This document shows, one piece after another, positions 935 through 15,854 of a stretch of DNA of 64,000 nucleotides; positions within the stretch are counted from its first letter, which is position 1, and the number at the start of each line of letters is the position of its first letter. Source of the stretch: Planctomycetota bacterium (lineage in GTDB: Bacteria; Planctomycetota; Phycisphaerae; Sedimentisphaerales; Anaerobacaceae); the NCBI GenBank assembly GCA_013349615.1, contig DUZJ01000008.1, forward strand, positions 1-64,000. The letters are read 5' to 3'. A program made the position numbers and the translations under genes. Below the pieces are notes generated by a model. It saw only the letters and a program-made list of their open reading frames with translations, did not search any database and had not been told where the DNA came from.

Positions 935-2797
935 TCACCTTATGATAAGTACTCTGTTGCGGCCTTTGCTCTCGATATCGGTGCGAAAAATCAGATCGCT
1001 TGCTATCATATGTTGGGGGTCATAGATGACGAACAAAATGAAAGCCTGAGAGGGGTACTTAGTCAAGTCCGCGGCAATACCTTCAGTGGCTTTTGACGGA
1101 GGGGTTCCGTCTCTGATGTATTTCGCCTCTAGTAGCAGGTCTGCGTCAAGACGAAGATGGTCAGGGACGACCTGTGCGCAAGCAAAGGAGGTCGTGGGAT
1201 GCTCACTTCGAATATCTTCCTCATGGCTTCGCAGCAAGGGTCCTAACTTGGCGTTTAAGTCAGGCTCGTCTTTAGGCTTATTCTTTGCAAACATTTCACC
1301 GATTGCTGGTTCAATAATAGCGGACAATGTCTCTGCGAGCCGAATCGGCTCAGGCTTTAAGTATTCTTTTTCAGAAATCATACCCAGAAGAGAATCTTTA
1401 TGAATCGGGCCAAAGACATCGTCGTGCAAAGAACGCATCCTTGATAGAGCCTGTTTGACGTGTGTGCCGTGTTGATTGAATAGGGTCCAGACCTTATCTA
1501 CCCTGTCGGTATCGGATTTGAGGTTCTGTGGCAGGTAGTCAAGAACCTGCGCGAGGTCGGCAAGATATTCATCTTGGAACTTGTCAACGGAGTCTCGCGA
1601 GAACGAGATGGCTTGCCTGATATAATCGAGGGCCGTTGTTCGTGCTTCACGGTCGTTTATAGGGTCAGCAATTATGTCGTATGTGTACAAACCTCTGTGA
1701 TCCCGTTTTTCGGCTCCGACAGAGTATGTAGCAATCCGACGATCAATGCACTGTACACAGCGACCGCAGTGGGTGGCCTCGCCCTCCACGTCGAACGTCC
1801 TAGTACAGGATACGGAGCTAGAGATCAGCTCTGGGGAATGAGATTTAATCTTTGCAACTATTTCAGCCTTCGTTTTGAACATATAGGGTAGAACTATCTT
1901 GAATTCTGTTTCGCCAATCAATGATAGAAAGGCTGCGATCTTTGCCATAGTTTGTGGATGAGTGGTTCGGCTGGCGCGTGCGTTGACAAGGTCTTCTCTT
2001 CGGTGAAGATTGATACTTGTGACGCCATTCTCGTATACGGAGAAGACATTCTGATTGTAGGCTGATGCAATCGCGTAAGCAATACTAGTGTATAGAAACG
2101 ATCGCGTTCTCTGTGTTTCCTCTCGAGCGCGCACATCTCGTAGGGTGCACTCGAAGCTGTAATGGAGTGCACGCCTAGGATATCGTTGTTTGAGTGCTTG
2201 AGCGAGAACGCGTTGTGTTTTGGTGGTCGCAGGTTTTGACTGATGGCTAACGAGGACGACTTTGCTATCTCCAGTGGAAAGAAGGTCAAGTGCTCCGGCG
2301 AGAGAGTCAAGGCCACCAGAGAATAGAGTGACCACGACTCCTGTCAGTCCGAGGTCAACTGAGAAACCGGGTCGATCAAAGAGACCTGTCGGAGGAGTTG
2401 AGTATCCCGGTTCAAAATGAAATGTGTGCTCAGCATCGCCGGTCAGGAAAGTTAACATGTCCGACAAAGCTTTTGTGACGGTTGGCTGGGTCCAGAACTC
2501 GTGGTCTCTAACTCGAATATGAAAGTCGATAAGACGCGACCAGGCGTGGTATTCAAGTGCGTCCTTTGGGCCGCGTGATAAGGACCGGTCTGCCGCGAAG
2601 ACGTAACCAGCAATCTCCAGAAGATCGAGGATGCGCGGCGGGAGGTGATAGACATCCTGCACAAATCGAGGAAGGCCAATTCGTAAACGTTGACCGGGCT
2701 GACCCTCGATGTAGTGAAGACGTAAAGACCCAGTGGTGTCCGGTGGGCCCGTAGCTCCGTTCGCGAGGACGAGATGTCGACGTCGTTCGGTGTTCAT
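935..2797 (-). CDS. QueC-like PP-loop ATPase fused to a DpnII/MboI-type PD-(D/E)XK nuclease domain
   Basis: The 620-residue protein has three parts. Residues 1-150 form a unique N-terminal region. Residues about 152-360 are a QueC-like PP-loop domain with the ATP-binding SGGLDS motif at 160-165 and an intact four-cysteine zinc site: C331, then C344-x2-C347-x2-C350 followed by DRR. The last 75 residues resemble the PD-(D/E)XK domain of DpnII/MboI-type nucleases, with D551/D553, E557-x-K559 and the VIYDP strand. Housekeeping QueC is only about 230 residues and lacks the nuclease part. QueC-like enzymes are known in the Qat and type IV CBASS antiphage systems, but I see no QatA, QatD or CD-NTase here. 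The start overlaps the upstream gene's stop by four bases (ATGA), implying translational coupling. A defence role is inferred; the domain calls rest on visible motifs. Confidence 0.85.
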   Translation of the reverse strand: MNTERRRHLVLANGATGPPDTTGSLRLHYIEGQPGQRLRIGLPRFVQDVYHLPPRILDLLEIAGYVFAADRSLSRGPKDALEYHAWSRLIDFHIRVRDHEFWTQPTVTKALSDMLTFLTGDAEHTFHFEPGYSTPPTGLFDRPGFSVDLGLTGVVVTLFSGGLDSLAGALDLLSTGDSKVVLVSHQSKPATTKTQRVLAQALKQRYPRRALHYSFECTLRDVRAREETQRTRSFLYTSIAYAIASAYNQNVFSVYENGVTSINLHRREDLVNARASRTTHPQTMAKIAAFLSLIGETEFKIVLPYMFKTKAEIVAKIKSHSPELISSSVSCTRTFDVEGEATHCGRCVQCIDRRIATYSVGAEKRDHRGLYTYDIIADPINDREARTTALDYIRQAISFSRDSVDKFQDEYLADLAQVLDYLPQNLKSDTDRVDKVWTLFNQHGTHVKQALSRMRSLHDDVFGPIHKDSLLGMISEKEYLKPEPIRLAETLSAIIEPAIGEMFAKNKPKDEPDLNAKLGPLLRSHEEDIRSEHPTTSFACAQVVPDHLRLDADLLLEAKYIRDGTPPSKATEGIAADLTKYPSQAFILFVIYDPQHMIASDLIFRTDIESKGRNRVLIIR

Positions 2798-3567
2798 TCT
2801 GCCGCCTCTCTCTGCATTTCCTCCTGTAGTTTGCCAAAAGCCGTCGCAAGAAAACCTCGGATTTCTGTGTCAGTAGGGCGTGACTCGCGCGCGTGATTGT
2901 TGAACCAACCAGCTGCAAAAGATTGCGTTATCTTGGAAGTCTCAAAGGCGTGCCTCGAAACTTCCTCTATGTGAACGTGAAGGCTTTTGGCAAAACTTTC
3001 ACGGGCTTCAAAGGAGGGCAATTGTGCTGACGCTTCACGTTCCAAGAAATAGCGTAAGTATCGCTCGGTGAAACGCGCGAAGAATGATCTAGCTACTTGG
3101 CAAAAGCCTTCAGCGTTGGCAGATTCTGACCATATGTCACTAGCTGAGACACGGGCATCAAAAAGGAGCCCTTGTGCACTGCGAGTCCTTGTCCAGTCAG
3201 CGATTGCATCTGCACCCGCACGGCATGCAACTTCAGCGTATTCCTGAGACAGTGCGTGGAGCCTAACCCATTCACTAAGATTCTTAGCAATCCGAGCGGG
3301 GGATGGATTTCCATCAAGTCCTGTTTCGGGAGAGCTAAGACCTGTGCTGCGCGGGAGAGCCGCCGTGGCCAGCGATACCAAGTACGCGAAAGCTGCCTGT
3401 ACTCCACTGTCTCTATGGAGGTTACTGAACCGGACTCGCACATTGTGTAGGGTCCTGTCTGCCAAGTCAGCGACTTTATCAGCGTGTCCTTTGGAAAGTG
3501 AAATATCATCGACAATTGTACGCCAGCGTCTCGTACGTGGTAATGAACCTAGTCTTTCATGCCCCAT
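2794..3567 (-). CDS. Helical partner protein of the QueC-nuclease fusion, unknown family
   Basis: This 257-residue protein is soluble and mostly alpha-helical, with no signal peptide, membrane segment or recognisable catalytic motif. It is the first gene of the pair and its stop overlaps the QueC-fusion start in ATGA, so the two are very likely co-translated. The first available start gives Met-Gly-His; the next methionine is far inside. An aromatic-rich patch (RSFFARFTERYLRYFLERE) lies in the second half. By position it corresponds to the partner slot of QueC-like enzymes in defence systems such as QatB beside QatC, but I cannot show homology by eye. No strong Shine-Dalgarno precedes the ATG; only a TTGGGG-like stretch is visible. 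The start is moderately certain and the function unknown. Confidence 0.75.
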   Translation of the reverse strand: MGHERLGSLPRTRRWRTIVDDISLSKGHADKVADLADRTLHNVRVRFSNLHRDSGVQAAFAYLVSLATAALPRSTGLSSPETGLDGNPSPARIAKNLSEWVRLHALSQEYAEVACRAGADAIADWTRTRSAQGLLFDARVSASDIWSESANAEGFCQVARSFFARFTERYLRYFLEREASAQLPSFEARESFAKSLHVHIEEVSRHAFETSKITQSFAAGWFNNHARESRPTDTEIRGFLATAFGKLQEEMQREAAE

Positions 3568-7065: not shown

Positions 7066-8325
7066 TCAGCGTACATTGTATGCATAAAGAAAATCGCCGT
7101 GGCGGATGTAGAACCTGCCGCCGCAGACGACGGGGTGGGCCCAACTGTTACCTTTTCCGCCTTTTGGAATCTCGAACGAGCTAATCAGCTCATACCTATC
7201 AGGATTCGGGCGAACAAGCCCTACGGCACGGTTTTCACTTAGCATGTACAGCATCCCGTCTGCATACGTCAGCGAGCCTTTGCCGATGCCCTTTTCCACA
7301 TACTTTTTCTCGCCGGTTTCCCAGTCCAGGCATATCCACTTGGGGCCGTTGTAGATACAGCTTGATGAATAGATGTAACCATCGATTAACAAGCCGCCAC
7401 CGTGGTGATTATCGAGCTGGTTTGAACGCCACAGCTCTTCGACGGAGGCCTTGCCGTCTTTGACGTTAATCTTCCACTTGACCGAACCTGCCTTAATAGT
7501 GCTGATAAACACTTGGCCGTTGTGAAAGATGGGAGTGAAGACATTCTCATCGGCATACGAAACGTGTTTGACGTGCCACAGAAGTTCGCCGGTGTCGGCA
7601 TTCACGCCTATCATGCCTTTGAGGGTAAGCGTGATGATAATTCGCAGTCCCTTATACTCAACGACAATCGGAGTGGCATAGCCGGCCCTCTCACCCGTGC
7701 TGTCCGCTTTCCAAACAACCGCTCCGGTATTTTTGTTCAGTGCAACCATGCAGGACTGCGGTCCTCCCGGACAACAGATAAGATTATCTCCATCGACCAG
7801 CAGCGATTCAGACAGGGCCCAAGTGATATTTTTGCTCTTGAACTTATCGAGGATATTCAGCCCCCAAATCTTCTTTCCTGTTTTGGCTTTAAGGCAGACA
7901 ACCTCCCCAAGTGGGCTTTCATGGTATAGGCGGTCGCCATCTATAGTTGGGGTCCCGCGAGTACCGGGAAGGTCTCTTGTCCAGCTTTTGCCGTTTTCCA
8001 CCTGCCACAAAACCTTGCCGTCCATATTCAGAGCGGTGACGACAGTCTCTTTTTCGATGTTACCGGCTGTATAAATCATTCCAGCCGCAATTGATACGGT
8101 GGAATATCCGTGGCCTAATCCCTGGCTTCTCCAGAGCAGCTCAGGCCCTTCCTCCGGCCACTTCTTCAAAAGACCTTTTTCAGTGGAAATGTTGTCTCGG
8201 TTCGGCCCATGAAATTGGGGCCAGAAGGCTTTTTGTTCAGCAGCGTATGCCGCAGTCGTTACGACAAGACCGCCGACTAATATGATAAAGATACATTTCC
8301 GCATTATGGCCTGTAACATGAACAT
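7066..8325 (-). CDS. Exported PQQ-like beta-propeller protein
   Basis: The 419-residue protein has an N-terminal signal peptide and is built from repeated WD-like strands of the PQQ/BamB propeller type, visible as recurring blocks such as ALNMDGKVLWQ, CLKAKTGKKIW, ALNKNTGAVVWKA, VNADTGELLWHV and CLDWETGEKK. Such proteins in planctomycetes are usually periplasmic scaffolds, or quinoprotein-like proteins without PQQ. No catalytic metal site typical of true alcohol dehydrogenases is apparent. AAAGGAG lies eight bases before the ATG, supporting this start. It converges on the GH127 gene with a gap of about 50 bases. Exact role unknown. Confidence 0.8.
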   Translation of the reverse strand: MFMLQAIMRKCIFIILVGGLVVTTAAYAAEQKAFWPQFHGPNRDNISTEKGLLKKWPEEGPELLWRSQGLGHGYSTVSIAAGMIYTAGNIEKETVVTALNMDGKVLWQVENGKSWTRDLPGTRGTPTIDGDRLYHESPLGEVVCLKAKTGKKIWGLNILDKFKSKNITWALSESLLVDGDNLICCPGGPQSCMVALNKNTGAVVWKADSTGERAGYATPIVVEYKGLRIIITLTLKGMIGVNADTGELLWHVKHVSYADENVFTPIFHNGQVFISTIKAGSVKWKINVKDGKASVEELWRSNQLDNHHGGGLLIDGYIYSSSCIYNGPKWICLDWETGEKKYVEKGIGKGSLTYADGMLYMLSENRAVGLVRPNPDRYELISSFEIPKGGKGNSWAHPVVCGGRFYIRHGDFLYAYNVR

Positions 8326-8348
8326 CTGTACCGCTCCTTTCTATCACA

Positions 8349-11300
8349 TTATTTTATCCAGTTTTCGGCAAATTTGGCAAAATCGGCGAAATTGACAATC
8401 CCATCATTGTTGAGGTCTTCCGGAATCGACCCTGCCGGGCCAACCCAAAGCCAGCGAGCGGCAATTTTCGCTAAAACCTTAAAGTCATGTGGAGTGCTGA
8501 CAGAAAAAAACCTGATGGTATCGGTGCCGTAGAAACATCGACCCGTGGTTAACTGGCCGACGACCTGCAATTCCACTATGCCATTATCGGGGACAGCCTC
8601 CATCAACTTGGCCTTATCAAAAAAAGCAAGAATGCTTGTCCGCTGAGCACCGCGTCTGCGAGACTGAATAACATATTGGTATATCGCTTCGACACCGCCG
8701 GGATAGAGCAGAAGCGGTTGTTCGCTGTCGACCTGGTTGCTGGTAACACCCTCGGGTAAACGAAGCATCGCTAATATTGTTGGTTGCCTGCTGTGTCGGT
8801 TTATTACCCGAGGAAATACCCACAACTGCGATTCCACTGGTTCAACGATGGTTATAACAACAGTATCCGGCTCAGAATCATCTATTCCATCATTGACAAC
8901 CAGCGTTATCACATACTCACCTGGGCATTCACCATCCAACGTGACGGCCGGCGTAGGCCCCTGTGCGGGACTCTCACGGAAAGGCCCGGTCCATGTATAT
9001 GTTAGAGCCGTGCCGTCGGCATCGCTTGACCTGCTGCCGTCCAATGTGATCTCTGTCCCCTGCTCCCTGACGCATGCACATTCGACAGTCTGGTCATCTC
9101 CGGCATCGGCAACCGGAGCCGTGTTCTCCGTTGCAAACGACCAGTCATTTCCATCGACCGCGCTGCAGCAGTTCTTCGCTACCACCTGCCAGTAGTACCT
9201 CGTACCTCGCTTCAGCACATCATTCGGCCCAGGAGTCGGGTCGCACATCGGTCCGTCCAGGTCCCGGCAGAGCAGCTCCAGTGCGTTCGGGTCCGTACCA
9301 AAGTAAACGTCCCAGGTCGCAGGACACGGCGGACGGTACGCGAACAGGACCGCCAAACCAGGATGCAGACCCGCCTGGTTGCACAGATAGTTCAATCCGC
9401 AATCACGGTCCCTCTGAATCCCCACCGTTGCAAACGAACCGGCTTCTAAGCTGGGATCAGCATACAGCAGAAGAATGTCACCATTCTCTTCGAATAGTTG
9501 CGCCTGACAGGTCACCCAGTCTTCCGAACCGAAGTAGTCATAGTGGCCCACGTTCTCCCATTGTACAACGAGAATACGATTAGGCTCATCACCAACAACC
9601 GCATAGTACACGTTGTCGTCGGCGCCGGGACTCGGATGGAGGTCATCCCAGTAAACCGCTATGAAAGGCTCGACGTCGTAATTAGAGCCGCACGGAATGC
9701 AGCAGTTATTAAAACCGAAGTATTTGTCCTCGAAGTAAATCGTTCCATTCGAGCTGACCGCCACCTGATTGTGGTCGCTCCCATAGAGAGGGAAACTAAA
9801 AGGCAGCTCGATGCCGAAGTAGTGTTCGTCGTCACCAAGGTTAAGATTGGTCCCCGTTCCAGCAATCTCTATCCAGTCGAAAGCAGGACCATTTGGCTCA
9901 TCGCTGTCGATGAAGATGTAATCACCGGCATCCGGCCCACCCTTGCTCATCTCGCCCACAAGTGCAGGCACAGCTTCCGGCGCCGCCGACTCTTTCACAT
10001 CGAGTTCAACACCGCTGGGGCCGTCTAACTCCACGTCCTTGTGCTGTATCAAATCTGAACCTTCTGGTTTAGGCCAGAGCTTAAAATTGCTATCGGTGCC
10101 GTTTGCGTCCTGATGCTCCCCACTGCCTGCTTCATCCGTACATCCACTCTCGTCCGGCGCTGTTGTATCCGGAAGCTCTCCCGGAGCCCTGATGTACGTC
10201 AGGTTGTCCAGCGCAAACCGTCCTGCCGAAGGATGAGAAAAGGTAATGGCGGCATGCGAGATGGGCGTCGTACTTGTACCGCTGTTCATCCCCTCGATAG
10301 TATCAGAACCTATAGGCCCGGCATCAGCCGAAAAACTGCCGAGCAGCCCGCCCGCACTGTCAAAGAAAACCATTGTGGTTGCGTTTGTCTGCGCCTCGTC
10401 GTCACTCAGTGCGAAGCCGTAGGAAACACTGAAAACCGGGATGGCAAGGTCAAAGTCGAGCGTCATAATCCCCTCACTTTCCCCCTCGATGCTCGGCTTC
10501 TTAATATATGTAGTATAACCTGGCCCTTCATAAGTAACAGTCGCATCATCAGAAGAGAAACCGAATGTTACGTCCTCGATTACCATACCGTCCACGACTG
10601 TTCCCGCAGGCACTTCGTCAAAAGTAATCGTCACCGGCGGCAATCCCCCCAGCTTCCATCTCAGCTCGGTATCGACCGGCACGTCAGCCGCGCCGTCGCG
10701 CGGCTCCGGATAGAGCGGCTCTCCGGGGAAGATGCAGAACAGCTCGAAGTCATCATCACTTACATCCGAGTATGTTCCGTCGGTCATCTCTATCCTGTAA
10801 TCCGAGCCTGCGGGCAAGCTTGCGGGTATCTCCCAGGCAAACCTGCCGGTGTCAGGAACATCTTCGGCCAACTGTGAGTAAATCTCTGTCCCTTTGAGCA
10901 GATAAATATCAACGACAGGGCCGCCGCCGATAGAGTACCATTGAATAACCTGGGTGGACACCAGTACCCAGCTCTGGCCACCGTTAGGACTTACGACCGT
11001 CACCCCCCTTGGCGCAGTTAAGGCATTATACGCATTAAGGCGGCGTCCGGAGATAGTTTTACCGTCTAATGCCGGTATCGCATCGCCCGTCCAGACCATC
11101 CTGTCCTTCAGCTCGTCCAGGGACATTGCCTGGTCACCGGATTCCGGCCCAGTCGAACCGGATGCACCCGGCGGACCGGGCAGATTAGCCAGCACAAGTG
11201 CCGCTGCTCCCGCCACGTGCGGCGCCGCCATCGATGTCCCACCCCACGAGTCATAGCGTTCGGCGTAGTTGTCGATACATTGAATATGGATATTATCTAT

Positions 11301-13046
11301 TTGGGCACCGAAGTAGTAGTTGTCCTCGTCGTCGGTAATCCAGCGGAACCTCACTTTCATCTCCTCGTTGCAATACGATTCCGTGATTTCAATCTTCCTC
11401 AACCGGTCAGTGTCTGTGGAAAAGACCGTATGCCACGTCTCACCGTCCCACACATCAACGTTCAGTTTATCGCCGCGTCCGACTTCGCAGCTGCACTCGA
11501 ACCCTAAAGTAAGCCCGCGCAGTTGGCGCGTGTCTATCGGAGGCGTCACAATGGAACCGTTACTGCCGGCAAGATAGGGCCGGCTGTTTTCCCAGTCGCC
11601 GCGGGCGGCAATATCCTCCGAGGCAGCCGCCGCCTCAACGCCGGCGCTGTTCTCTACTGGAGCACCCGGATGAGGAGGAAACGGCGGTCCCGGAACACTC
11701 ACTGTGCCCCAGCGGTTCATCGGCCCATCTAACAGCATTTGTGTGCCTTCAAAACCAGGCATCGTAGCGCCCTGAAAATCCTCAAAGAACACGGTTTTGT
11801 ATTTAGGCAGGCAGCTCAGAATGTTTACTCCCGGCGCTCCAACGTGCACCGACTCAGCGCCGTAGCAGGAAAAGCCGGCTAATGTATCTATATGGCTGGT
11901 GGCCGCCACTGAAATCACGTTGGAGAGCTTGTAGCTGGCAGGGTAGAACGGCTCTGCGTCATTGTTCCTCCTCTCATTACCTGCTGCCGCCACGAACAGA
12001 ACACCGTGGTCGCGGGCGTTAATAATCGCCGCTTTCAGAGACTCTGAGTATCCGTCGCCGCCCCAGCTACAGCTCAGAATCTTAGCGCCGTTATCCACCG
12101 CGTAGTTGATGGCCTCGATTGCATCTCCCAGGTTGCCGCCACCGCTCGCACCAATGAATCGAAGCCCCATCAGCTTACATTGCCAGTTGACGCCGGTTAC
12201 TCCAAGCTCGTTATCGCCGACGGCTCCGATTGTCCCTGCACAGTGTGTCCCATGCCCGTGAGTGTCACTGGGGTCACAATCGGCCTGGAAGAAATCATAG
12301 CCATACACATCATCGACATATCCATTCCCGTCGTCGTCGATATTGTTGCCGCCAATCTCTCCGGGATTGACCCACACATTCTCAGCCAAATCCGGGTGCA
12401 GGTAGTCGATACCGGTATCAATGACCGCCACTATTACATCTGACGTCTCTGGCACACCTGCAGCCACGTCCCAGGCCTCCGGAGCGTCGATATCTGCGTC
12501 TTCTGTTCCACCGGTTTGCCCGATGTTGTTCAGTCCCCACATTTGAGCGAAAAGCGGGTCGTCCGGGACTCCCGCTATACGCACACGGTAATTGGGTTCA
12601 ACCACTAATATTCGCCGGTCTCTCGCCCGCCAGTTCTCCGCTATTGCGGCCTTTACCGATTTTCCGGGCGGCAGTTTGACCCGAAGCACCCTCTGCCGCC
12701 GGGACAAAGCCATACGCCGCACAATTTTCCCACGCACCGCGGCTTCAGCGCCGGCAAAGTCCTCGTCTGCGCCCCGAACACCCTTTCTCTCAACGTCCGC
12801 CGACAGTAGTACCAGGACCTCTCCTGGAACATACGCCTCAACATCGGCATAGATGCCGCGCATTCCGGCAGCCGGTTGACCGGCCCGTCCACGTCCGGCT
12901 AAACCCTGCGGTGCAACCTTTGCAATCGCACAGGTCACTGCTGCCATTAGTGTTGCCGCACTGATAGCGAACAAGAACTTCGAGTTTCGGACTCTCCTGC
13001 AGACCTTCATTTTTTCTCTTTTTTCATCTTTCATCGTGGCGGTCAT
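8349..13046 (-). CDS. Large secreted subtilisin-like serine peptidase (S8) with accessory domains and dockerin-like tail
   Basis: The 1565-residue protein has a signal peptide (hydrophobic about 24-42), an I9-like propeptide (about 65-158) and an S8 catalytic domain with D210 (VIDTG), H265 (HGHGTHCAG) and S605 (GGTSMAAPH). About 170 residues between GAPGVNIL and GGTSMAAPH form an inserted jelly-roll-like domain, where subtilases normally have only about 20. Downstream are a Kre9/KNH-like Ig domain (about 685-770), beta-rich domains, a PKD domain near 1330-1430 and a C-terminal dockerin-like EF-hand (DLNNDGIVNFADFAKFAENW). It probably degrades extracellular protein, and the tail may anchor it. 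An internal ATG 12 codons in is an alternative start; neither has a clear ribosome-binding site. The PQQ-propeller gene lies 23 bases downstream on the same strand, so co-transcription is possible. Confidence 0.88.
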   Translation of the reverse strand: MTATMKDEKREKMKVCRRVRNSKFLFAISAATLMAAVTCAIAKVAPQGLAGRGRAGQPAAGMRGIYADVEAYVPGEVLVLLSADVERKGVRGADEDFAGAEAAVRGKIVRRMALSRRQRVLRVKLPPGKSVKAAIAENWRARDRRILVVEPNYRVRIAGVPDDPLFAQMWGLNNIGQTGGTEDADIDAPEAWDVAAGVPETSDVIVAVIDTGIDYLHPDLAENVWVNPGEIGGNNIDDDGNGYVDDVYGYDFFQADCDPSDTHGHGTHCAGTIGAVGDNELGVTGVNWQCKLMGLRFIGASGGGNLGDAIEAINYAVDNGAKILSCSWGGDGYSESLKAAIINARDHGVLFVAAAGNERRNNDAEPFYPASYKLSNVISVAATSHIDTLAGFSCYGAESVHVGAPGVNILSCLPKYKTVFFEDFQGATMPGFEGTQMLLDGPMNRWGTVSVPGPPFPPHPGAPVENSAGVEAAAASEDIAARGDWENSRPYLAGSNGSIVTPPIDTRQLRGLTLGFECSCEVGRGDKLNVDVWDGETWHTVFSTDTDRLRKIEITESYCNEEMKVRFRWITDDEDNYYFGAQIDNIHIQCIDNYAERYDSWGGTSMAAPHVAGAAALVLANLPGPPGASGSTGPESGDQAMSLDELKDRMVWTGDAIPALDGKTISGRRLNAYNALTAPRGVTVVSPNGGQSWVLVSTQVIQWYSIGGGPVVDIYLLKGTEIYSQLAEDVPDTGRFAWEIPASLPAGSDYRIEMTDGTYSDVSDDDFELFCIFPGEPLYPEPRDGAADVPVDTELRWKLGGLPPVTITFDEVPAGTVVDGMVIEDVTFGFSSDDATVTYEGPGYTTYIKKPSIEGESEGIMTLDFDLAIPVFSVSYGFALSDDEAQTNATTMVFFDSAGGLLGSFSADAGPIGSDTIEGMNSGTSTTPISHAAITFSHPSAGRFALDNLTYIRAPGELPDTTAPDESGCTDEAGSGEHQDANGTDSNFKLWPKPEGSDLIQHKDVELDGPSGVELDVKESAAPEAVPALVGEMSKGGPDAGDYIFIDSDEPNGPAFDWIEIAGTGTNLNLGDDEHYFGIELPFSFPLYGSDHNQVAVSSNGTIYFEDKYFGFNNCCIPCGSNYDVEPFIAVYWDDLHPSPGADDNVYYAVVGDEPNRILVVQWENVGHYDYFGSEDWVTCQAQLFEENGDILLLYADPSLEAGSFATVGIQRDRDCGLNYLCNQAGLHPGLAVLFAYRPPCPATWDVYFGTDPNALELLCRDLDGPMCDPTPGPNDVLKRGTRYYWQVVAKNCCSAVDGNDWSFATENTAPVADAGDDQTVECACVREQGTEITLDGSRSSDADGTALTYTWTGPFRESPAQGPTPAVTLDGECPGEYVITLVVNDGIDDSEPDTVVITIVEPVESQLWVFPRVINRHSRQPTILAMLRLPEGVTSNQVDSEQPLLLYPGGVEAIYQYVIQSRRRGAQRTSILAFFDKAKLMEAVPDNGIVELQVVGQLTTGRCFYGTDTIRFFSVSTPHDFKVLAKIAARWLWVGPAGSIPEDLNNDGIVNFADFAKFAENWIK

Positions 13047-13234
13047 TCGTACTGCTGGTTCTTATTTTCGGTAATATGTACTCTACAGTGCAATTATTAC
13101 GTTCAAATTCCGCTTTAAGACCTATAAACTTAAAAAGAAATGTATATTTTCTCCTGTTTTCAGTGCTTTGTTTTTTCATAGGAAACTCTTATGGCTATGG
13201 TATTTGCATTGGAAAACGACCACGTTTGTTGTGG

Positions 13235-13282
13235 AAGAAAGGGCGGCAGGAGGCGAAAAGAAGCCTTCTGGCCACCCTTCTT
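13235..13282. other. Long imperfect stem-loop upstream of the subtilase gene
   Basis: AGAAAGGGCGGCAGGAGGC at 13235 onward pairs with the sequence ending ACCCTTCTT near 13282, giving a stem of about 19 bp with a few mismatches and a GAAAAGAA loop. It could be a bidirectional terminator remnant or a leader structure of the minus-strand gene. No homologous RNA family was recognised. Confidence 0.4.
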
Positions 13283-13463
13283 TAGAAAATAGTATATCTG
13301 AATGAGAAAAAAATATCAAGGAAATTACAGCCCTTTATATATTCGGCCTCGGTAATTCAGGAAAAGTAATGGCAAAAGCCGGCCCCGGCTGCAATAAGAC
13401 AGAACAAAAAACACAAAAAAACACTTTTTCGCACACCCGCGGTTTTGTTCTCGTAAATTTCAC

Positions 13464-13492
13464 TTGACAAAGCGCACGCGTTCAATTATTTA
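13464..13492 (+). promoter_or_regulatory. Candidate sigma70-type promoter of rpmF-plsX-fab operon
   Basis: A perfect -35 box TTGACA (13464-13469) and a TATTTA -10 box (13487-13492) are 17 bases apart, about 70 bases before rpmF. Placement and spacing fit a housekeeping promoter. Confidence 0.6.
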
Positions 13493-13559
13493 GGCTGTTT
13501 TTAGTGTTTGTTCGTTAATATTTTTAGCAGTTTTGGAGACTTGTAGAAGATAGTTGACT

Positions 13560-13748
13560 ATGTTACCCAAAAAGAAAACATGTAAGAGCAAAACACGCAT
13601 GCGTCGCAGCCATCATCGGCTAAAGGCCACAAACTATGCCCTGTGCCCAAAGTGCGGCCAAGCCAGGCTGCCGCACGCTGCATGCACGAATTGTGGTTAT
13701 CTCAACCCAAAGATTACCCTGAAGCTCGGAAAAGAAGAAAGCAGCTAA
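13560..13748 (+). CDS. rpmF: 50S ribosomal protein L32
   Basis: The 62-residue product has the L32p signature: a basic N-terminus with PKKKTCKSKTRMRRSHH and two zinc-binding CxxC pairs (CPKC and CTNC). It is a structural component of the large ribosomal subunit. It sits two bases before plsX, the arrangement that links ribosome and membrane-lipid synthesis in many bacteria. ATG at 13560 is preferred; a TTG six bases earlier is possible, since the only GGAG is more than 20 bases upstream. Confidence 0.93.
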   Translation: MLPKKKTCKSKTRMRRSHHRLKATNYALCPKCGQARLPHAACTNCGYLNPKITLKLGKEESS

Positions 13749-13750
13749 GG

Positions 13751-14770
13751 ATGCGAATCGCAATTGACGCAATGGGAGGCGACAATGCGCCGGATGAAAT
13801 TATCGCCGGTGCACTGGAATCAATTGGGCTGCTCGGCGAAAATGATGAGCTGATAATTGTCGGACAACAGGAGGTGATAGAACCGCGATTACCCCCTTTG
13901 AAGTCGCGGGAAGGGACCATAAGCGTTGTTGATGCGCCCCAGGTCATTGGCATGGACGAACCGCCCGTAGAGAGTCTGAGAAAAAAACGCAAGAGCTCAA
14001 TTGCCGTTATGGCCAAAATGGCAAAACTCAACCAGGCTGATGCAGTAATCTCAGCCGGTAATACGGGAGCTTGTGTCGCCGCTTTCCAGATGAGGATGAG
14101 AAATCTCTCCGGTGTCAATCGGCCGGGCATAGCCGTTGTCTTTCCGACCTTTGAAGGACCTGTGACAATTTGTGACGTCGGCGCAAACATCGCATGCAAG
14201 CCGATAAATCTCTACCAATATGGCGCTATGGCAAGGACGTATGCAAAGCATCTACATGGAATTCAAAACCCAAGGGTGGGACTTATGAGCATCGGACAGG
14301 AAGACGCAAAGGGCAATGAAGTTATTAAAAAGGCAAGAGAGCTGATAAAATCCGATTCTAATATGAACTTCGTCGGAAACATTGAAGGAAGAGATATCTT
14401 CACAGGCGTCTGTGACGTCGCAGTGTGCGATGGCTTCGTCGGAAATGTAATCTTGAAGCTGACCGAAGGGCTTGTCAACGGCCTGTTTAAAGCCATAAAA
14501 CATGAGCTTTTGGGAGAGAAACTCAGACTCGCTATGAAGTTTAAGCCGGTAGTAGCAAGAATTTACAGGAAGTACGACTATAATGAATATGGCGGTGCTC
14601 TGTTATTGGGAATTAACGGAACAGCCCTAATCTGTCACGGTTCAAGCCGAAGCAGAACAATAAAAAATGCCATACTGGCCTCAAAAAAATTCTACACCGA
14701 AAAAATAAACGACAAGATAATTGAATATCTGTCACAAATCTCAATAAGGACGGATGATGAATCCCATTAG
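13751..14770 (+). CDS. plsX: Phosphate acyltransferase PlsX
   Basis: The 339-residue protein converts acyl-ACP and phosphate to acyl-phosphate, the acyl donor for PlsY in phospholipid synthesis. Family features include the N-terminal AIDAMGGDNAPDEI motif, an SAGNTGA segment, and a late CDGFVGNVILKLTEG segment. It is a peripheral cytoplasmic membrane enzyme. ATG at 13751 gives the usual family N-terminus; an in-frame start over 100 bases upstream would overlap rpmF in another frame and is rejected. The 3' end overlaps fabH by about 17 bases, consistent with a tightly coupled operon. Confidence 0.95.
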   Translation: MRIAIDAMGGDNAPDEIIAGALESIGLLGENDELIIVGQQEVIEPRLPPLKSREGTISVVDAPQVIGMDEPPVESLRKKRKSSIAVMAKMAKLNQADAVISAGNTGACVAAFQMRMRNLSGVNRPGIAVVFPTFEGPVTICDVGANIACKPINLYQYGAMARTYAKHLHGIQNPRVGLMSIGQEDAKGNEVIKKARELIKSDSNMNFVGNIEGRDIFTGVCDVAVCDGFVGNVILKLTEGLVNGLFKAIKHELLGEKLRLAMKFKPVVARIYRKYDYNEYGGALLLGINGTALICHGSSRSRTIKNAILASKKFYTEKINDKIIEYLSQISIRTDDESH

Positions 14771-15854
14771 ACATTCCCAAGATAAAAAAATATCTCCTTC
14801 CAAACAACAGAACAATAGCAAACATGCAAATATGTCTAACGGGATGAACAAGTCAATTAACGACCGCTCCACTTCCTATCGCGCAGCTATCACTGGTTGT
14901 GGCTCATTTGTGCCGGATAAAATATTGACCAATGAAGACCTCGCAAAGATGGTCGACACCACCGACGAATGGATTACCACCCGTACCGGCATCAAAGTTC
15001 GGCACATTACTACCGGCAGCGAAACCACCGCTTACCTAGCCACCGAAGCCGCAAAAAAGGCGTTGGCCAAAGCAAATCTTGACCCCGCCGAACTTGAGCT
15101 TATTATTGTCGCTACTATTACGCCGGAGATGGTTTTCCCTTCGACCGCATCCTTTGTGCAGCGCTCTCTACACGCCAAAAAAGCATGGGTGTTCGATTTA
15201 TGTGCCGCTTGCAGCGGTTTTGTATATGGCCTGTCAATCGTCCAGCAGTTCCTGGAGAGTGGACGGTTTAAGAACGCACTCGTAATTGGTGCCGAAACTT
15301 TGACTAAGATTACCGACTGGACGGACCGCACAAGCTGTATCCTTTTCGGCGACGGTGCCGGTGCCGTCGTACTTGAGCGGCAAAATACTGGGCGAGGTAT
15401 TTTATACAGCACTATGTCGTCGGATGGAGAGCGTTGGGAAGCATTGAACTGCCAGGCGTACGGCTCTCGATATCCAGCCGACAAAAAGTTGGACGACCCG
15501 AAAAAAATCTATATGCAAATCAAGGGAAGAGAGGTTTATCAGCAGGCCATTCGCCGGATAGTCGAAGCTGTTACCGAGTGTCTCCACGTTTGCGATTTGG
15601 GCCTGGACGACATTAAAATGATGATTTCACATCAGATGAATGGAAGGATTATTGAGTCTGCCGCCAGACGCTTGAAATTACCTGATGAAAAAGTCTTTAT
15701 AAATATCGCCGAGTACGGCAATACATCAGCCGCCTCTGTACCCATCGCCTTCGATGGGTGCGTAAAACAGGGCAAAATCAAGCAGGGTGATATTGTTATT
15801 TTCGTCGCCTTTGGCGCCGGGCTAACCTGGGGAGCAAGTGTAATTCAGCTTTAA
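14754..15854 (+). CDS. fabH: 3-oxoacyl-ACP synthase III (KAS III)
   Basis: The 366-residue enzyme starts fatty-acid elongation by condensing acetyl-CoA with malonyl-ACP. Catalytic residues are visible: C153 in AACSGF, the His of ISHQMN and the Asn of EYGNTSAAS. The first about 42 residues are a basic, polar extension not typical of FabH; ATGs at residues 27 and 31 could be the real start, but AAGGA lies directly before the tandem ATGATG at 14754, which favours the long form. The start overlaps plsX. It is a member of the plsX-fabH-fabD-fabG block and acts in the cytoplasm. Confidence 0.93.
   Translation: MMNPIRHSQDKKISPSKQQNNSKHANMSNGMNKSINDRSTSYRAAITGCGSFVPDKILTNEDLAKMVDTTDEWITTRTGIKVRHITTGSETTAYLATEAAKKALAKANLDPAELELIIVATITPEMVFPSTASFVQRSLHAKKAWVFDLCAACSGFVYGLSIVQQFLESGRFKNALVIGAETLTKITDWTDRTSCILFGDGAGAVVLERQNTGRGILYSTMSSDGERWEALNCQAYGSRYPADKKLDDPKKIYMQIKGREVYQQAIRRIVEAVTECLHVCDLGLDDIKMMISHQMNGRIIESAARRLKLPDEKVFINIAEYGNTSAASVPIAFDGCVKQGKIKQGDIVIFVAFGAGLTWGASVIQL

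Follow-up and report, generated by a model that had tools for sequence, protein, structure and literature searches.

The window, meaning the whole 64,000 nucleotide stretch of DNA analysed here, carries a two-gene unit on the negative strand, less than 1 kb from the end of the contig. In brief, gene B encodes a helical partner of 257 amino acids and gene A, directly downstream, an enzyme of 620 amino acids fused to a predicted nuclease domain. Both frames, and the ATGA coupling between them, were found at exactly the positions claimed in a preliminary description of this DNA. The features of the locus are:

935-2797, negative strand: gene A, 620 amino acid QatC-like/PD-(D/E)XK nuclease fusion (open reading frame, profiles, model)
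2794-3567, negative strand: gene B, 257 amino acid QatB-like, all-helical partner (open reading frame, model, profile match)
2794-2797, negative strand: ATGA overlap of the B stop and the A start (relatives have overlapping genes too)
3523-3567, negative strand: N-terminal tail of B, MGHERLGSLPRTRRW, the putative substrate end, with Gly2 exposed after Met removal
1370-2782, negative strand: predicted QatC-like region of gene A (residues 6-476), both terminal extensions included (Z 34.2)
2303-2320, negative strand: SGGLDS pyrophosphate-binding motif, residues 160-165 of A (invariance in the alignment)
1955-1972, negative strand: SRTTHP, QatC-type substrate loop, residues 276-281 of A (alignment)
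1748-1807, negative strand: zinc site region of A with C331, C344, C347 and C350 (alignment)
938-1351, negative strand: DpnII/MboI-like nuclease domain, residues 483-620 of A (PF18742, invariant residues)

A sample of 392 Planctomycetota genomes, together with a Leptospira noguchii plasmid, yielded full-length relatives at 47% that are coupled to the same partner. A single-protein search of genome contigs returned no relatives; an alignment-based scan found 278 in genome contigs and 153 in viral contigs, and we read the loci of the best 79 and the best 80 of these, respectively. In nearly all loci the enzyme gene begins within the partner gene, and 150 of 160 loci have an overlap of 4, 8, 11 or 14 nt. 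Since dozens of species show the two domains, the two genes and their overlap, the arrangement is not due to chance.

A QatC-like enzyme and a QatB-like partner

The product of gene A had been described as a QueC-type PP-loop enzyme with an SGGLDS motif and a four-Cys zinc site. This holds, as residues 284-356 match the QueC Pfam family (29 bits against a cut-off of 22) and none of 41 nuclease-type homologues departs from S160, G161, G162, D164 or the four Cys. The nearest family is QatC in both PADLOC (E 3e-54) and NCBIfam (E 1e-58), and two QatC proteins were the only relatives found when the PDB sequences were searched with A. It should be noted that A scores 199 bits with the NCBIfam QatC equivalog, which is below its cut-off of 280 bits. 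Serpin and sigma-factor matches to A were below the cut-offs and were taken as chance.

The AlphaFold2 model of A (41 sequences, mean pLDDT 88.4; one plasmid-derived row was excluded from the alignments used for folding) predicts a full-length QatC fold for residues 6-476, with Z 34.2 over 405 residues to 9y01_B, compared with Z 13.9 for Cap9 and 13.8 for QueC. The predicted fold includes the N- and C-terminal extensions, i.e. those that bind QatB. Residue D58, which aligns with D63 of QatC, called catalytic (PMC13329287), and the HP motif show no variation in the 41 sequences. The substrate loop is SRTTHP in A and ATRTTHP in aligned HTH-type relatives; in QatC, such a Ser/Thr loop (S/T-R-T-T-H-P) replaces the Tyr/Asp residues of QueC and Cap9 (PMC13279940). 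A has the QatC set of features, namely the Ser/Thr loop, SGGxDS and the four Cys, and as modelled it is QatC-like over its first 476 residues.

The sequence of B gave no match in Pfam, PADLOC, NCBIfam or the PDB, and PADLOC matches of other members of the B family, weak and scattered over unrelated families, were rejected. The model of B (pLDDT 86.5) is all helical with the first helix at residue 15, in line with the helical protein described earlier. The best PDB match of this model among 999 chains aligned is QatB (9y01_A), with Z 11.3 over 190 residues; the next fold has Z 7.5. Foldseek alone ranks QatB third with a probability of 0.84, far above its neighbours in that column. A Z of 11.3 is modest for a helical protein and below the level advised for helical bundles, and sequence profiles were therefore used as an independent test. 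The profile of 81 partners matched that of 10 canonical QatB proteins with 71% probability (E 3.6e-5), whereas the reversed profile gave 0.3% and 40 column shuffles at most 0.8%. By fold match and controlled profile match, B is QatB-like, and it is in this respect that "uncharacterised" no longer describes it.

Glycine occupies position 2 in all 152 full-length partners, mostly as MGH followed by LP and W, with H3, P10 and W15 nearly invariant. The start codon that gives Gly2 is mechanically the first one in 116 of the 152 and lies in frame further in for 30; two of the remaining partners begin with MGQ or MGN and four apparently have a non-ATG start. Only three columns, M1, G2 and K246, show no variation in the 81 partner sequences. 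K246 (2830-2832 in the window) is near the C-terminus of B. QatB has MGTS and a long disordered tail; B has MGH, with Gly2 kept. The glycine of MGTS is essential in QatB and, by analogy with Cap9, points to an N-terminal modification (PMC13279940). By the same kind of analogy, the MGH...LP...W tail of B appears to be the counterpart of the essential MGTS tail of QatB.

The preliminary description had proposed base- or protein-modifying chemistry. Of these, protein modification is more likely and base modification less so. Membership in the QueC family together with a restriction-enzyme-like domain could suggest restriction-like DNA modification, in which host DNA or tRNA would receive a 7-deazaguanine made by the QueC-like part, with the nuclease directed at unmodified DNA. 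We regard this as very improbable: A has the Ser/Thr loop of QatC where QueC and Cap9 have Tyr/Asp substrate residues, in published work QatC fails to substitute for QueC (PMC13329287), B is QatB-like, and the recurrent neighbour clusters are recombinases and replication genes, with queD and queE absent from them.

The predicted nuclease domain and the exchangeable C-terminal slot

The C-terminal part of A matches the DpnII-MboI Pfam family at residues 510-615 (E 2.7e-9, 37 bits against a cut-off of 27), and E511, E532, D546, E557 and K559 are invariant across the 41 nuclease-type sequences. The DpnII/MboI-type domain with D and ExK proposed earlier is thereby borne out by profile, although its size is about 138 residues (483-620) and not 75. 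PF18742 was found in 42 of 44 members scanned, and the remaining two are TIR-tailed. The model of A is weak at residues 543-548, and the whole-chain fold search listed no restriction nuclease because QatC and PP-loop folds occupy the list.

By their tails, the QatC-like cores sort into a nuclease class of 49 loci (assigned by profile), two further large classes with 52 and 38 loci, and several small ones. In the largest class an HTH is suggested by weak Pfam matches and by reading of the sequence, one small class has a clear Trans_reg_C match (E 1e-9), and the one member scanned of the 38-locus class gave no Pfam match. In two Poribacteria, TIR replaces the nuclease (L058:7980-9926 and L063:1623-3575); the gene next to the first of these encodes a Type ISP restriction-modification enzyme. 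When the cores were placed in a tree, the MGH-type enzymes separated with full support from ten canonical QatC proteins, and the TIR, c3 and singleton tails were nested in the main nuclease clade, from which it follows that tail replacement has occurred repeatedly. The tree is a quick one and its branches are long; its split from QatC is firm, its deep order is not. The C-terminus of the core is an exchangeable slot for a nuclease, a TIR or a helix-turn-helix.

Two overlapping genes, one with a nuclease, the tight pairing of A and B and the copy on the Leptospira plasmid would also suit a toxin-antitoxin-like or stability module. In brief, the nuclease fusion would be a toxin that B, or the N-terminal modification of B, keeps inactive, and its role would be maintenance of a mobile element, or abortive infection when B is lost. 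This is unlikely, as a large conserved ATP-dependent enzyme core is unusual in a simple toxin, the partner shows the predicted QatB fold and keeps its Gly2 tail conserved, and the tail of A varies among nuclease, TIR and HTH.

Distribution and genomic context

Going by record titles, about 17 phyla have nuclease-type pairs, a spread that would be expected of a system moved horizontally. No third gene recurs among their neighbours, which include type I, II and III restriction-modification, AbiEii and other candidates. At 1e-10, 149 neighbour proteins match 381 PADLOC families, against 11 families for 144 proteins from arbitrary Planctomycetota regions; PADLOC families are redundant and the control comes from one phylum, so these figures are a contrast and not a rate. 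In Larkinella punicea, a complete qatA-qatB(MGTS)-qatC-qatD set begins 76 bases after a nuclease-tailed MGH-type pair, showing that the two coexist as separate units. Pair and set together span 7208-14903 of that locus (L079). The homologues of the pair thus lie in defence-rich regions with no sign of a queuosine operon, the outcome of the neighbourhood check that had been proposed.

The HTH-tailed pairs lie near large serine recombinases, DUF2924, D5_N primase and AAA_24 genes of mobile elements (examples are loci L028, L095 and L132, among others). HTH-tailed relatives are common in viral contigs, near serine recombinase, primase and ATPase genes, and this might point to regulation of mobile elements or competition between them: the core would modify B, the C-terminal domain would steer the complex to DNA, and the nuclease form would act against rival elements. 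We find this quite unlikely for the pair. The nuclease cluster holds 51 of the best 79 genome loci (two of them TIR-tailed) whereas none of the best 80 viral loci is nuclease-tailed, the neighbours of nuclease-type pairs are defence genes, and TIR is not a DNA-binding domain. The HTH-tailed relatives in mobile elements nevertheless mean that the family need not be immune as a whole.

Beside A and B in the window we found no defence genes, except for a subtilase-type match in a large secreted-type protein. This protein (8349-13046, 1565 amino acids) has a translation that ends in a dockerin-like stretch. The source genome, which is 80% complete, has one QueD-family match and gave no match to QatA, to SMODS (for a CD-NTase) or to a separate canonical QueC, and none above the cut-off to QueE. 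Its single TatD match is on another contig. The statement that QatA, QatD and a CD-NTase do not accompany the pair agrees with these searches, and the QatA ATPase and QatD TatD nuclease of a qatABCD operon are not present at the locus.

Proposed function and comparison with known systems

With A QatC-like and B QatB-like, the two form a core of the QatBC type to which a nuclease is fused. The earlier placement of the locus outside the Qat world must therefore be given up. That A and B would work like QatBC is well supported. The pair does not belong to qatABCD, having neither QatA nor QatD nor MGTS. We suggest that it is probably a stand-alone QatBC-type anti-phage module with a built-in nuclease effector. 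This is the best explanation of the QatC and QatB folds, the conserved catalytic and tail residues, the pairing, the exchangeable slot and the defence-rich context. The compact defence system proposed earlier stands as regards the QueC-type/nuclease fusion, the coupled partner and the defence-rich relatives, with phage defence itself as a probable role. An antiviral function would agree with the finding that some phages are held off by QatBC alone (PMC13279940). Counted against this reading are the short tail of B (about 14 residues, against 30-90 in QatB) for reaching the active site, the lack of a QueE match above cut-off in the 80% complete genome for deazaguanine supply, and the window's own neighbours, which are not defence genes.

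In the proposed mechanism, the start Met of B would be removed to expose Gly2, and B would dock on the QatC-like part of A in a presumed complex. The tail of B, GHERLG..LP..W, may then thread into the active site of the ATP-pyrophosphatase, in which a small carboxylate activated by ATP, possibly 7-carboxy-7-deazaguanine or a related molecule, would become attached to the amine of Gly2. Such a modification, or interference with it during infection, may control the fused PD-(D/E)XK nuclease, which would then cut DNA as its presumed target. The action of QatC on QatB, and how the phage is stopped, is a stated open question (PMC13279940).

Going further, we speculate that the pairs form a widespread, undescribed immune class, with a QatBC-type modification switch, an MGH-tailed substrate and interchangeable in-chain effectors such as a PD-(D/E)XK nuclease, a TIR or DNA-binding domains, which works without QatA and QatD and may have an N-terminal modification of its own; we put the chances of this at about even. 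No description of an effector-fused two-gene Qat was found in the literature searched, the coverage of which is incomplete, so that absence there is no proof. The QatBC core is fused in nature to recognisable effectors, which makes its output measurable, as DNA cleavage or NAD loss would report the switch, and could help to show how Qat immunity works. Such fusions also suggest that protein modification of QueC origin is a general module that can be combined with different effectors. In the QatC cluster, about 34% of the genes have qatA beside them (PMC13329287), and effector-fused pairs may explain why many QatC-like genes have no adjacent qatA.

Among known systems, canonical QueC (PF06508 cluster 1) shares the PP-loop fold and zinc site with A, which departs from it in extensions, substrate residues, partner and context, having neither the Tyr/Asp nucleobase residues nor queD/queE as neighbours. 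The C-terminal domain resembles DpnII/MboI-like PD-(D/E)XK nucleases (PF18742) by profile and by the invariant D and ExK, but is fused to a QatC-like enzyme in a two-gene unit without a methyltransferase. Type IV CBASS Cap9-CdnD (PDB 9nto) likewise has a QueC-family enzyme expected to act on the N-terminal glycine of its partner; A lacks the Tyr/Asp nucleobase residues, B has the predicted QatB fold instead of being a CD-NTase, and there is no CBASS effector operon. With the QatB-QatC core of qatABCD (PMC13279940; PDB 9y01, 9y02), A shares the modelled QatC fold over residues 6-476, the Ser/Thr loop and the zinc site, and the pair a helical QatB-like partner directly upstream, overlapping genes and an N-terminal Met-Gly tail. 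The pair differs in its fused C-terminal nuclease, in having neither QatA nor QatD alongside, in the tail of B before the first helix (about 14 residues with MGH..LP..W, compared with MGTS and 30-90 residues in QatB), and in that A falls in its own clade, separate from canonical QatC.
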